Shown here one piece after another: positions 56,075 through 61,830 of a DNA stretch of 64,000 nucleotides. Origin of the DNA: Bacteroidetes bacterium HGW-Bacteroidetes-10 (GTDB taxonomy: Bacteria; Bacteroidota; Bacteroidia; Bacteroidales; UBA932); the NCBI GenBank assembly GCA_002842695.1, contig PHDT01000001.1, forward strand, positions 124,001-188,000, read 5' to 3'. Every line of letters starts with the position of its first letter. Within the stretch, counting starts at the first letter, position 1. The position numbers and the translations under genes are program-made. The notes beneath the pieces were generated by a model. The model was given only the letters and a program-made list of their open reading frames with translations, made no database searches and was not told the DNA's origin.

Positions 56075-57106
56075 ATGTTAACAGTAGTAATTGTTGCAAT
56101 ACTTATTGCATTGCTTTTTGACTTTCTTAATGGTATGAATGATGCCGCAAATTCAATTGCGACCATTGTCTCTACCAAGGTACTCTCCCCCGGTGCAGCG
56201 GTTTTATGGGCAGCATTCTGGAACTTTGCAGCATTCTTTATATTTGGCGTGCATGTGGCAAACACAATGGGAAAAGGAATTGTAGACCCTACAGTAATTA
56301 ATCCCACCCTTATTTTGTCTGCTCTTATAGGTGCTGTTGTGTGGGTATGGGTTTGTACACACTATGGATTGCCCATAAGCGTTTCTCATGCACTAATTGG
56401 TGGATTAATCGGACCGGTTTGGTTTGTTTACGGAAGCGACGCACTGTTCGCCACCGGAATCTACAAAATTGGACTGTTTATTGTTCTTTCACCGCTTATT
56501 GGAGCTATTCTCAGTTTTATCATGATGTCTCTCACAATGCTTGTTTTCAAACGAAAACACCCACTTAAGGTTGAGGGGACATTCAAGGTTCTGCAACTCT
56601 TTTCGTCTGCAATTTTTTCTCTCGGACACGGAGGAAACGATGCCCAGAAGACAATGGGTATTATTGCCATTCTTTTATTCTCTGTTTCAGGTACCAACTC
56701 CTTTATAGATACATACCTATACGCAAACACAGGAGAGTTCCATGTGCCTCTTTGGCTTACAATAACCTGTTATTCAGTTATTGCACTGGGAACAATTACA
56801 GGAGGATGGAAAGTAATTAAAACTCTGGGAGACGGGCTTGCTAAACTTAAGCCTGTTCAGGGTTTCTGTGCAGAGACTGCCGGTGCGCTTACACTTATTG
56901 GTACAGCTCTTGGCGGTATTCCTGTGAGCACTACTCATACCATTACAGGATCAATAATTGGGGTCGGACTCACAAAAGGTGTTGCATCTGTTAAGTGGGC
57001 AACTGCCAAGAATATTGTTGCGGCATGGGTTCTGACCATCCCTGCCACTCTTGCTATTTCCGGGCTAATATATCTGCTTCTGTCTACAATCTTTGTAGTC
57101 TCTTAA
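56075..57106 (+). CDS. Inorganic phosphate transporter, Pit family
   Basis: 343 aa; DFLNGMNDAANSIATIVSTKVL, SLGHGGNDAQKTMGI, PVSTTHTITGSI. Confidence 0.95.
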   Translation: MLTVVIVAILIALLFDFLNGMNDAANSIATIVSTKVLSPGAAVLWAAFWNFAAFFIFGVHVANTMGKGIVDPTVINPTLILSALIGAVVWVWVCTHYGLPISVSHALIGGLIGPVWFVYGSDALFATGIYKIGLFIVLSPLIGAILSFIMMSLTMLVFKRKHPLKVEGTFKVLQLFSSAIFSLGHGGNDAQKTMGIIAILLFSVSGTNSFIDTYLYANTGEFHVPLWLTITCYSVIALGTITGGWKVIKTLGDGLAKLKPVQGFCAETAGALTLIGTALGGIPVSTTHTITGSIIGVGLTKGVASVKWATAKNIVAAWVLTIPATLAISGLIYLLLSTIFVVS

Positions 57107-58251
57107 GGCTGATATAAACCTGAACGGTTAACCAGTTCAGACAGCATCAAAATACGCTTCCCTGAAACCATGGGAGCAATTGAACAGGCAGTGCTGAGGA
57201 TGAATCCATCTCCTCTCCTGCCTGTTTCGATTATATCCAGCACATCTGACTCTGCTTTTTCATCGTCTGCATATAGAAGTGAATATACAGAATCTATGTT
57301 CCCCTTGATAAACATACTTTTTCCAACTCTGTCAAAGGCGTTTTTCAGATCTACATTTCCAACGGGAGGAGGATCAAGGCACTCCAGACCTGAGGCTCCC
57401 GAATCTCTCATAAGTTCAAGTCTGTCGTCAATATGTCCGCAGGTATGGATATATACATGCTTTCCTTTAGCCCTTATTCTTGAAATAATTGCCTTTTCAT
57501 ACGGAAGAACAAATTCTGCATAGTGTTCCGGAGATATGAATCCCATTCCTGCAAAAGGGGAAGATATCTTGATTGCATCAATATCGCAGTTGCACATCTC
57601 TTCTGCCAGATCGCCTATCCCTGCTGCAAATTTTGCAAGTATTGCCTTGCATCTCTCAGGCTCCATTATGAGTGATATTAGTCCCTGCTCATATCCCAGC
57701 ATATCAAGCAGATAGTCGAATGGCGAAGTAATCTCTCCGTGAATTGAGTATTTTCCGTTTGTCATTTCAGTGAGCAAGGGAAAAATATCGAACTTGTGCT
57801 GCAGGTCAATTTTAAAATAGAGCCCGGCTGAGACAGGAATATAGTCTATTACAGAAGGGATATCATTCTCAATGTCAATTTCAGCAATATCTTTATTTAT
57901 ACTCTTTTCCAGCTGATACACCATTGGCAGATCGCTCCAGGAGTGAAGCTCTGTTCTCTCTTTGAAAAACACCTCCTGGCGTCCCTCTTCAAGATCTCTT
58001 ATCTCAGTGACGCTCTCTCTCCAGCAGGGCGAATGGCCGTGGAGACTAACCAGAATTCCGTCAAAGTTAAATCTGCTGCAAAGTTCTGCCAGTCCTTCTG
58101 CAAAGACCCTTCCATCGTACCAAAACTCTGCCGGAGAAGGCTTCAGCTGCTGCATCATTGAGCCAATGCTAAACTGACACATAAGCGGCACTCTGTCGGG
58201 CTTCTGCAAATTCATTGCAGTAAGAACCCTCTCTCTGGGTGTGTAAATCAT
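57103..58251 (-). CDS. Uroporphyrinogen decarboxylase-like methyltransferase with HxCG Zn motif (UroD-2)
   Basis: 382 aa; RVPLMCQFSIGSMMQQL, HVYIHTCGHIDDRLELMRDSGASGLECLDPP, STACSIAP; not true HemE because of MtaA-like Zn motif and operon context. Confidence 0.85.
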   Translation of the reverse strand: MIYTPRERVLTAMNLQKPDRVPLMCQFSIGSMMQQLKPSPAEFWYDGRVFAEGLAELCSRFNFDGILVSLHGHSPCWRESVTEIRDLEEGRQEVFFKERTELHSWSDLPMVYQLEKSINKDIAEIDIENDIPSVIDYIPVSAGLYFKIDLQHKFDIFPLLTEMTNGKYSIHGEITSPFDYLLDMLGYEQGLISLIMEPERCKAILAKFAAGIGDLAEEMCNCDIDAIKISSPFAGMGFISPEHYAEFVLPYEKAIISRIRAKGKHVYIHTCGHIDDRLELMRDSGASGLECLDPPPVGNVDLKNAFDRVGKSMFIKGNIDSVYSLLYADDEKAESDVLDIIETGRRGDGFILSTACSIAPMVSGKRILMLSELVNRSGLYQP

Positions 58252-58877
58252 ATCTCTTTAATTAATTTGTTAAGACAACTTTCCCTGCACTTTTCGCAAC
58301 CGTAAGAAGCATAAACAACTTCCTTTCCCATTGCAACAATCCCGCTAACCGACTTTACCGGAAACATTAGCGAGCCCTCTGTAAGAGCAACATTACAAGG
58401 CAAATCCGGAAAAGCGGCAAAAAGCAGCTTTTGGTCGGAAACGCGCCATCCGCAATATCCGGGACTATACCTGTTTGAATAGTTGTATCCTTTGTCATTT
58501 GCAATCAGCCCGATTTTTCTGTGTACAAAGTCTGCAAGGGCCTCGGCATAGAGAGATGCCAGATGGTCTGCAGCATAATATGCAAACGGATCGCTTTTGA
58601 ACGAATCAATTATTTCAGAGGCCTCTGCTCCCAGAGTTGCTACAAAGAGGGCCACTTCGTCTGCTTTATCAAGTTTACGGGAGACTCCGGGACTAAAATT
58701 GAACTTTATTTCATCTGGTTTAATAAGCAGAATCTCATATGCCGGGCGAATCGTCCTGAAAGTAATGGCAATTTTAAGCGTCTCTTCCGTGAAATCCGCT
58801 CCAAGAGCTTTATGGTGATTTTCCATAACTGACTCAAGTTCTGATGCAGAGAGCTTAAATTTATAGTGATTACCCAT
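58248..58877 (-). CDS. Vitamin B12-dependent methionine synthase activation-domain-like protein (stand-alone)
   Basis: 209 aa; FVATLGAEASEIIDSF, YNYSNRYSPGYCGWRVSDQKLLFAAF, C-terminal YGCEKCRESC. Confidence 0.85.
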   Translation of the reverse strand: MGNHYKFKLSASELESVMENHHKALGADFTEETLKIAITFRTIRPAYEILLIKPDEIKFNFSPGVSRKLDKADEVALFVATLGAEASEIIDSFKSDPFAYYAADHLASLYAEALADFVHRKIGLIANDKGYNYSNRYSPGYCGWRVSDQKLLFAAFPDLPCNVALTEGSLMFPVKSVSGIVAMGKEVVYASYGCEKCRESCLNKLIKEI

Positions 58878-59802
58878 TTTTCAAAAGCATTTTAATTGAT
58901 TCAGAAATACTTCTCTCTCCAAAAATAACCAGTTCAGTTCTTGGCGGAGGAATTTTACACTCCTCCGTTGTTACCTCCCCTTCAACGGAGTTAAGCTGAA
59001 TGCCTCCTCCGGTAGTGCGTATATATCCTTTTGCCCTTAAAGAATTCTTAAGAATAGCTGATATTTTCGCAGCTATATCAGGTGAAACCTGAGATGAAGC
59101 TGATATTACATTACAATCAATTTCAGGAGGTGCGCTCAGAGGGGGGCGGGATGAGTCGCCGGTTCCGTAAAGGGATAACTCTCTCTTTTCAGGCAGAAGC
59201 AAATCTTCCATTACCTCACCGGGAAGTCTCGAAAATGAAGTTTTGAAAATTTTGCAATTTGCGTTAATCCTTTTAACTGCCCGTTCGGCATCAAGAATAA
59301 TCTCCTCCCCGGCGGTATCGCAGCGGTTCAGAATGAGCATATCTGCTACCCTTACCTGATTGACAACCTGCCCAAGCATTTTCGACTGTTTCGTAAACCT
59401 TGCTGCATCGGCAATTGTAAATGCCTTTCTGTATACAATCCTGTCTCTAAGCTTGTCTGACGTGATCACCTGCATGAGTGCAAGAGGATCTGCCAGACCT
59501 GTTGCCTCAATAAAAACAACATCTGGAGACTCTCTCTCCAGAAAATCAGAAAACTGAGGTATAAAGTCTCCCAGAAGGCAGAGACAGAAGAGAGAACCGT
59601 TGTTCACCTCCATCGTTACATGAGGTTTGGAGGACTCTTCAAGAAATCTCCTGTCAATATTAGCTGAGGCAAATTCGTTCTGAACAATGGCAATCTTCAG
59701 ACTCTCTCCGTAAGATTCAAGCACACCCTTAAGGAAAGAGCTTTTCCCGCTCCCCAGGAAGCCGGAAACCAAAAACAGAGGTATTGGCGTGCTTTTACTC
59801 AT
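58870..59802 (-). CDS. CobW/COG0523-family G3E GTPase
   Basis: 310 aa; LVSGFLGSGKSSFLKGVL P-loop, VFIEATGLADP, LILNRCD; CxCC position reads FCLCLLGD. Confidence 0.88.
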   Translation of the reverse strand: MSKSTPIPLFLVSGFLGSGKSSFLKGVLESYGESLKIAIVQNEFASANIDRRFLEESSKPHVTMEVNNGSLFCLCLLGDFIPQFSDFLERESPDVVFIEATGLADPLALMQVITSDKLRDRIVYRKAFTIADAARFTKQSKMLGQVVNQVRVADMLILNRCDTAGEEIILDAERAVKRINANCKIFKTSFSRLPGEVMEDLLLPEKRELSLYGTGDSSRPPLSAPPEIDCNVISASSQVSPDIAAKISAILKNSLRAKGYIRTTGGGIQLNSVEGEVTTEECKIPPPRTELVIFGERSISESIKMLLKNG

Positions 59803-59809
59803 AATTCTC

Positions 59810-61168
59810 TTAAATCCTCTCTTTTACCGCTTCTGTGAGCTTTGAAAGCGGAGGTGTCTGAGAGATAAAAAGTGGTTCTCCGTTAATGCAGATGGTTGGA
59901 ATTTTAGTCACTCCAAGTGCCTTCATCATAGCAAGCCCCTCATAAGTCTTGATTTTATGTTCATGAATCTCTACCTTATCTCCAAATGCAGGAAGCAGTC
60001 TGCTGACCAGCTCCATCATATAACTGCAGGGCGCACAGGAGGCAGAGTCCAGTGTTACCACATCTACCACAGCCTTTCCCATACACCATCTGGAAGAGAT
60101 ATCCGGAACTTCATCCTGACTGACCTCCATGCTTGTGTTTCTCAGAATATCCTGCCTGTATCTGTCTTTTACAATCCGTGAAACAGCCTCAACATTTTTA
60201 ACAGGCACATTCATAGGCAAATCGCAACCCGGAGCCAGTACAAATCCTCTGTTTCCGCCAGTATCTATACACTCCAGGGCATCTCTCTCGCACTCCTCTT
60301 CGGTTCCAAGCAAAAGAGTGGTAGTAAGCTTCAGATTCCCGCCAAAGCTAATTCCTGCCGCCCCGGCAACTCTTTTAACCTCTGTAAGGGGAATATTTTC
60401 ATCAACAGAAATATTATCGGGACCGCATGCGGCCATAAGTTCCAGATTATGTTCTGCCTGCCCGCAGACAAAGAAAGAGCTGAGTGAATTCATCTCTCTT
60501 ATTTTAGAAAAGAGCTTTTTCGAACTATTTAGAACGAATGTTTCGAAGGTAACAGGATCAATCTGACTTGTCATCGGGTCAACTACTGCAATCACCGAAC
60601 AGCCCGCTTCTATGTAGGCCCCGGACATTGCTGCTGCAATACCGGTGCAGTACTCAATGACACTCTCTACCTTTTCCGGATTCTCAAACATCTCTGTAAA
60701 AAGCGATGTTCCCATAAGGTGAAGGGCAAGTGTAAGGGGTCCGGTTACAAGTCCAAAAAAGGCAACTTCAGGATGAAGTGAAGAGATAGTCCGGGCAGCA
60801 CTAAGTGCCTCCCCAGTTCTTCCCTCTCTTTTTGCAAGTATTGAAATAAAATCTGGCAGCTCTTCAAGTTTGACTCCCTCTTCAAGCGGATGGGATACCA
60901 CTGCGGGAGGATTCGATGGAGAGTAGAGTAATCTGCAGCCCAAAGCCTCTGCCTCCATCTGAAGGTCGAAAGTTACAGGTAATCCATCAGGAGTATATCT
61001 TCTGATAGCCTCCTCCAGACCTTTGACAATCAATTCAGAAGATGATAAGTAATTTTGTGCGCTCACTCCTGTAAGAAAAGCACCATGGCACCCTACAAAA
61101 GGTAGCCAGGCAGGCCTGTCATTTTCCTTAAGGAGATATGCATTCCTAATATATTCTGCTCCTGTCAT
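59810..61168 (-). CDS. UroD-like methyltransferase fused to C-terminal thioredoxin-like domain (UroD-1-Trx)
   Basis: 452 aa; UroD/MtaA-like body, then VVDVVTLDSASCAPCSYMMELVSRLLPAFGDKVEIHEHKIKTYEGLAMMKALGVTKIPTICINGEPLF (CAPC thioredoxin-like). Confidence 0.87.
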   Translation of the reverse strand: MTGAEYIRNAYLLKENDRPAWLPFVGCHGAFLTGVSAQNYLSSSELIVKGLEEAIRRYTPDGLPVTFDLQMEAEALGCRLLYSPSNPPAVVSHPLEEGVKLEELPDFISILAKREGRTGEALSAARTISSLHPEVAFFGLVTGPLTLALHLMGTSLFTEMFENPEKVESVIEYCTGIAAAMSGAYIEAGCSVIAVVDPMTSQIDPVTFETFVLNSSKKLFSKIREMNSLSSFFVCGQAEHNLELMAACGPDNISVDENIPLTEVKRVAGAAGISFGGNLKLTTTLLLGTEEECERDALECIDTGGNRGFVLAPGCDLPMNVPVKNVEAVSRIVKDRYRQDILRNTSMEVSQDEVPDISSRWCMGKAVVDVVTLDSASCAPCSYMMELVSRLLPAFGDKVEIHEHKIKTYEGLAMMKALGVTKIPTICINGEPLFISQTPPLSKLTEAVKERI

Positions 61169-61830
61169 GACAAAGAATTTAAAAAAGATACCGCTGACTG
61201 GGGAGTCTGAGCGTAAAGATCTGCCCCAATTCGTTGAGCAAATTCTGCGTTGAGAGGTGCTCCTCCTACAATCACTTTCTGATCAGGCATCAGGCCCTTC
61301 ATCTCTCTTACAGCCTTTTCCATTGATTCCATAGTAGTTGTCAGCAGGGCTGACATTCCTATTATGCATCCCGGATATTCACGTGCTGCTTCAATAAACT
61401 TCTCACTCTTCACATCCACTCCAAGATCAACTACTCTCCAGCCCGATCCTTCAATCATCATTGAAGCCAGGTTTTTCCCTATGTCGTGCAGGTCTCCCGC
61501 TACAGTTCCAACAACAAAAACACCCCTCTCCCTTATCTCACCGGATGTGAAGTAAGGCTTCAGATGAACCATTGCACGACTCATTGCTCTTGCAGACATA
61601 AGAACCTGGGGTACAAACAATTTTTTCTCTCTGAAAAGCCCCCCGACAATTGCCATTGCAGGAATAAGCGCACTGTTGAGAATCTCATTTGCCGACACAC
61701 CTTCATCAAGTGCTGCCCTGGTAAGCTCGTCTGCTCCCGGCTGCCCCTTCATGTCCGGAGGGTATGGTGAATTGATGTCTACTTTTCCTTTCTGAACAGA
61801 TAGTGAAATTTTGTCTGTGAACTCTTCCAT
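61165..61830 (-). CDS. Corrinoid (B12-binding) methyl carrier protein
   Basis: 221 aa; GTVAGDLHDIGKNLASMMIEGSGWRVVDLGVDV (DxHxxG), IIGMSALLTTTM, VIVGGAPLN. Confidence 0.95.
   Translation of the reverse strand: MEEFTDKISLSVQKGKVDINSPYPPDMKGQPGADELTRAALDEGVSANEILNSALIPAMAIVGGLFREKKLFVPQVLMSARAMSRAMVHLKPYFTSGEIRERGVFVVGTVAGDLHDIGKNLASMMIEGSGWRVVDLGVDVKSEKFIEAAREYPGCIIGMSALLTTTMESMEKAVREMKGLMPDQKVIVGGAPLNAEFAQRIGADLYAQTPQSAVSFLNSLS

Follow-up and report, generated by a model that had tools for sequence, protein, structure and literature searches.

A corrinoid methyltransferase operon with a stand-alone MetH-activation-like protein in Bacteroidetes bacterium HGW-Bacteroidetes-10: parts with precedents in an apparently new combination

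The nearest published relatives of the operon described here are the type 1 mlp clusters (Kountz and Balskus, PMC10418091), a COG0523 subfamily encoded with corrinoid methyltransferases (Haas et al. 2009, PMC2770081) and TM0269 of Thermotoga maritima (cited in PMC7857596). In this study, we analysed a stretch of 64,000 nucleotides (the window) from Bacteroidetes bacterium HGW-Bacteroidetes-10 (GenBank assembly GCA_002842695.1, contig PHDT01000001.1, positions 124,001 to 188,000; window positions are used below), in which a first-pass annotation had noted a candidate undescribed methyl-transfer operon. Its five genes encode a corrinoid protein (CP), a UroD methyltransferase fused to thioredoxin (UroD-Trx), a CobW-like GTPase, a stand-alone MetH-activation-like protein (MA) and a second UroD methyltransferase (UroD2). 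The word undescribed holds only in part: the relatives named above are published, while a description of the full five-part combination was sought in the openly licensed literature and not found. The module is real and widespread, its parts have precedents while their combination is apparently new, and it is best filed as a corrinoid methyltransferase operon variant with MetH-type reactivation.

Like the operon, type 1 mlp clusters have a corrinoid protein and at least two UroD methyltransferases related to methylcobamide:coenzyme M methyltransferases, without a folate methyltransferase close by; their His-Cys-Cys zinc site is also seen in UroD2. They are defined by at least two UroDs with over 25% identity to a characterised SCMT, a Ram/RACE protein and a His-Cys-Cys zinc site in the Mlp proteins (PMC10418091). 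In the window, UroD-Trx has 25% identity to MtbA (4ay7), the match of UroD2 to the same protein is weak, and the zinc-site residues are His-Cys-Cys in UroD2 and Phe-Cys-Cys in UroD-Trx. In contrast to the mlp clusters, the operon has a MetH-type activator and a CobW protein but no Ram/RACE protein, one of its UroDs is fused to thioredoxin and carries Phe instead of the zinc-binding His, and the module is found mostly in Bacteroidota rather than Firmicutes. As Ram, a defining part, is missing from the cluster, we did not accept the type 1 mlp label; Ram was not detected in the genome either.

Several other described systems share individual features with the operon. COG0523 subfamily 13 also comprises CobW-type GTPases encoded with MtaA/MtaC-type genes and an activase (PMC2770081); however, its members lie beside mtaA/mtaB/mtaC and ramM in methanogens and some clostridia, whereas the window has a MetH-type activator and a CxC instead of a CXCC motif, and the likeness is no claim of orthology. 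Stand-alone MetH reactivators are known as well (Huang 2007, as cited in PMC7857596): TM0269 of the T. maritima pair TM0268/TM0269 has the MetH activation fold and serves MetH, whereas MA is encoded with a UroD/CP system. The split methionine synthase of Phaeobacter and the Mtg system of Ruegeria (PMC5764234, PMC12478193) recall the MtgC-like CP of the window and a free-standing homocysteine module found in relatives, but they use a pterin-binding subunit, RamA, DUF1638 and, for betaine, the MttB-family protein MtgB, none of which is in the window operon. Similarly, the acetogen chloromethane system CdmBCA (PMC13222342) and the O-demethylases compared with it (MtvB, OdmB and VdmB) combine a UroD-related substrate methyltransferase with a corrinoid protein, but pass the methyl group to tetrahydrofolate by an MtqA/CdmA-type enzyme and rely on an ATP-dependent activating enzyme.

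All five genes lie contiguously on the minus strand in the order CP (61165..61830), UroD-Trx (59810..61168), CobW (58870..59802), MA (58248..58877) and UroD2 (57103..58251), with three overlapping junctions (4, 8 and 4 bp) and one gap of 7 bp. The coordinates agree with the first-pass annotation, and profile searches confirmed all its family assignments: B12-binding (4e-25) and B12-binding_2 (6e-18) for CP, URO-D for UroD-Trx (4e-54, with a thioredoxin-like C-terminus) and UroD2 (2e-34), and, from Pfam, cobW (1e-36) for the GTPase and Met_synt_B12 (1e-10) for MA. No Rfam family matched around the operon, hence no cobalamin riboswitch was found there. A UroD-Trx alignment was scanned over one genome per species, which gave 487 encoding stretches; the best 80 were kept, so the counts below describe nearest relatives and are not rates for all 487. 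Flanks were long enough in 55 loci for gene content to be counted: 53 have CobW, 48 have CP, 27 have MA, 25 have a MetH homocysteine module and 22 have a further UroD. Three loci (our numbers L025, L029 and L031; UroD-Trx identity 66-81%) show exactly the five-gene order of the window, and L026 has the same genes in a different order. Because these three loci keep the order and the core of CP, UroD-Trx and CobW is found again in many relatives, both within Bacteroidota and in several further phyla, the arrangement is not a product of chance. Most relatives belong to Bacteroidota (Prolixibacteraceae and others), and the remaining records are labelled Melioribacteraceae, Planctomycetota, Hydrogenedentota, Sumerlaeota, Lentisphaeria, Raymondbacteria, SAR324 and a Lysobacterales metagenome-assembled genome. 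Taken with the families and folds, this recurring synteny bears out the proposal of a coupled corrinoid methyl-transfer operon.

The first-pass annotation had also suggested that the MetH-activation-like protein takes the place of a RamA-type activase. RamA was searched for across the host genome, which is 93.5% complete, and was not detected. MA and RamA largely exclude each other when 66 module loci are compared: 27 have MA in the locus and no RamA in the genome, 25 RamA and no MA, 5 both and 9 neither (p = 2.2e-6, or 5.9e-7 without short contigs), and phylogenetically independent pairs gave on average 4.2 opposite and 0.1 same. By Foldseek, the best structural match of MA (209 amino acids) is TM0269 (1j6r, 6e-9), and MetH reactivation domains are matched too. 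The activation-domain motif RxxPGY is present as RYSPGY, with SPGY invariant, and LM-P-KSVSG is also kept. Since the host lacks a detectable RamA, the two proteins tend to exclude each other and the fold is like that of TM0269 and MetH, MA probably replaces RamA as the reactivator. In addition, C142 and the CX2CX3-4C motif (C194, C197 and C201) are invariant in 32 MA sequences and, by profile alignment, are not seen in TM0269 or Escherichia coli MetH. These four cysteines may hold an iron-sulfur or zinc site, although the pLDDT of the model is below 50 over the C-terminal cysteines and no metal-site geometry can be argued from it. We tentatively raise the possibility that MA is a new class of corrinoid activase, that is, a MetH-type reductive methylator dependent on S-adenosylmethionine (SAM) with a metal site of its own, C142 plus CX2CX3-4C and perhaps [4Fe-4S], to deliver electrons, and that it would serve a folate-free UroD/UroD-Trx/CP methyl shuttle across several phyla instead of ATP-driven RamA.

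UroD-Trx consists of an MtaA/MtbA-like methyltransferase domain (residues ~1-345) and a CAPC thioredoxin domain (~366-452). Its AlphaFold model (pLDDT 92.4) best matches MtbA (4ay7/4ay8) in the PDB, with a target-normalised TM score of 0.90. The usual zinc set HxC...C is changed to F233-x-C235...C315: Phe233 replaces the His in all 81 sequences, and C235, E257 and C315 are invariant, E257 aligning with the MtbA Glu that follows the Cys by 22 residues (as read off the alignment). The curated cut-off of TIGR01463 for the MtaA/CmuA family (235.4 bits) is reached neither by UroD-Trx (164.5 bits) nor by UroD2 (78.9 bits). UroD-Trx has a longer form, with a second thioredoxin domain that is degenerate (Pfam Thioredoxin_3), in 35 of the 55 loci (e.g. 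L034:9001-10617). The MetH homocysteine module occurs only alongside this form (25/35 vs 0/20; p = 7e-8, not corrected for relatedness). In L060, L082 and L103, UroD-Trx and CobW adjoin genes that read as succinyl-CoA synthetase subunits, and there is no CP in the locus.

UroD2 (382 amino acids) keeps the zinc motif H269-x-C271 with C356, as well as D293. According to PMC10418091, His-Cys-Cys marks sulfur/selenium (S/Se) methyltransferases and loss of a Cys marks O-methyltransferases; by this rule UroD2 is read as an S/Se enzyme. The further UroDs in relatives' loci have mostly H-C-C or H-C-H motifs, and those with H-C-H may be ether demethylases. In one relative (L054:5503-8249), the module is preceded by genes for RhaT, RhaM and a UroD with H-C-H, and the same gene clusters occur in L057 and L036, which suggests methylated rhamnose as a substrate in these species. 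Many relatives have, where the window has UroD2, a MetH homocysteine module closest to that of T. maritima MetH (1q7m, E = 3e-54). Neither this module nor the further UroDs could be seen by the first-pass annotation, and both bear on the acceptor and donor.

The CobW-like COG0523 protein (310 amino acids) matches YjiA and has a G3E GTPase domain; MeaB is another G3E GTPase. A GSxFCxC motif is present in all 68 aligned sequences, and the family-typical CXCC (PMC2770081) is not. Because Haas et al. place a COG0523 subfamily beside Zn-dependent corrinoid methyltransferases, zinc loading is the role we favour, and cobamide loading, as by MeaB, would be the alternative. Metallation or the loading of a cofactor suits this GTPase better than reactivation. 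CP (221 amino acids) has a B12-binding cap and a B12-binding domain with the cobalamin-binding DxHxxG motif GDLHDIGK (residues 112-119), which is invariant across 64 aligned CPs. Its best NCBIfam matches are the MtgC and MtbC corrinoid proteins, all under curated cut-offs, and among solved structures it is closest to 1y80, a predicted cobalamin-binding protein. The host encodes a second B12-binding protein (L028:9069-9707, 212 amino acids), adjoining a histidine kinase and a 395-amino-acid protein; it was set aside as a second methyl carrier, as the neighbouring kinase suggests that it is probably part of a cobalamin-based sensor.

We favour, with a probability of roughly 60% for the reading as a whole, a corrinoid methyl shuttle with a thiol-type acceptor, in which MA reactivates CP and CobW loads metal or cobamide. 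The methyl group would be carried on the cobamide of CP, which the two UroD-fold methyltransferases would load and unload. In the window we favour placing UroD2, with its His-Cys-Cys site, on the thiol side, where it most likely acts on a thiol, a thioether or a selenol. UroD-Trx would be the constant partner, its thioredoxin domain probably keeping the Cys site reduced or presenting a sulfur compound; the direction of transfer between the two is given no better than even odds. Because many relatives carry the MetH homocysteine module in the place of UroD2 and no folate methyltransferase was found, we consider a homocysteine-like thiol a more likely acceptor than tetrahydrofolate. CP that has fallen to Co(II) would be rescued by MA through SAM-dependent reductive methylation as in MetH, the job that RamA does elsewhere, and the most likely cargo of CobW is a metal, namely zinc for the UroD sites, or else cobamide. 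Some loci have CP, UroD-Trx and the homocysteine module alone, and there UroD-Trx would need to act on the donor side; where only CP, UroD-Trx, CobW and MA are present, it would have to do both halves or use a partner encoded elsewhere. MtsA has been reported to do both halves, going by a reference title in PMC10418091. This class of mechanism is well supported. What we observed directly are the genes present, their synteny, folds and conserved motifs, the lack of RamA and its pattern relative to MA; the catalytic roles, donor, direction of transfer, acceptor class, CobW cargo and metal site of MA are inferred from these.

Several observations weigh against this reading. The loss of the zinc-binding His makes the zinc chemistry of UroD-Trx, and even its zinc binding, uncertain. 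After correction for relatedness the exclusion of MA and RamA falls short of significance (sign test, median p = 0.125), and there are the 5 genomes with both proteins and the 9 with neither. L052, L083 and L087 hold only CP, UroD-Trx, CobW and MA, so a homocysteine module or UroD2 is not needed everywhere. Finally, because the host genome is 93.5% complete, gene absences from it are provisional.

This last point matters for the proposal that the operon serves its organism as a split methionine synthase independent of folate. Searches of the host genome found no MetE, PF02574 homocysteine-module protein, canonical MetH activation domain or folate methyltransferase, the sole pterin-binding protein is DHPS-sized (289 amino acids), and relatives have a MetH homocysteine module beside CP. 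However, in a sister species a fragment of MetH (L110:1-1659) extends past both ends of its contig, and a same-genus species has full MetH; together with the incomplete genome, this makes the absence of MetH from the host unsafe, and metH may lie in the missing 6.5%. Almost all module-bearing relatives also have MetH, and we down-weighted this proposal, on account of the sister species' fragment, to quite unlikely. Between its B12-binding cap and B12-binding domain, that fragment contains an in-frame DUF559 (Pfam 2e-33, residues 257-363), which looks like an inserted endonuclease-type element. Very unlikely, in our view, is that MA merely reactivates the cell's methionine synthase, as TM0269 does for TM0268, and that its operon position is incidental. 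Its closest solved relative is indeed TM0269, but of the 16 genomes searched, mostly ones with MA, 13 have full-length MetH with a strong activation domain of its own, and therefore the module is not simply their methionine synthase and MA not simply its reactivator. Moreover, MA lies inside the module in 27 of the 55 loci and has four invariant cysteines that TM0269 and E. coli MetH lack.

Two further readings concern the substrate, and each is considered unlikely. One is an O-demethylation module, in which methyl ethers (e.g. O-methylated polysaccharide sugars) would be stripped by a locus-specific UroD, UroD2 being this enzyme in the lineage of the window, and UroD-Trx would be the shared second methyltransferase passing the methyl group on. 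The H-C-H UroDs of relatives, with the Cys-ligand loss that marks O-methyltransferases, adjoin the L-rhamnose transporter RhaT and the mutarotase RhaM or sulfatase, GH43-like, carbohydrate esterase, melibiase and GH127 genes, and a divergent AraC-type regulator is present in 27 loci (AraC and a GntP-type permease were identified by reading the sequences). Such genes are abundant in Bacteroidota anyway, so that this neighbourhood is weak evidence; the window operon has no adjoining sugar genes, and its UroD2 retains the S/Se-type site. The other is Se/S salvage like that of type 1 mlp clusters, in which methyl-selenide or methyl-sulfide compounds would be demethylated and the methyl group passed to a thiol. 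Two UroDs and a CP without folate methyltransferase are the mlp layout (PMC10418091), UroD2 has the His-Cys-Cys site, and SelD exceeds its curated cut-off in 12 of the 16 module genomes, host included. On the other hand, the operon lacks the Ram protein of the published definition, UroD-Trx lacks the His ligand, no selenium genes adjoin the module in the window, and the other 4 genomes have no SelD over the cut-off. A pure selenium reading was not adopted, as the frequency of SelD would count only against its background rate in relatives.

What becomes of methylated sulfur, selenium and ether compounds in anoxic habitats is controlled by corrinoid methyltransferases, and those known systems that are not MetH mostly depend on RamA-type, ATP-driven activases. 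If the shuttle reading is true, a widespread module built on MetH chemistry, found in cultured marine Bacteroidota, would show that such systems can be kept active in a second manner. It would also offer defined, testable parts: UroD-Trx, the four-cysteine MA and the CxC CobW.

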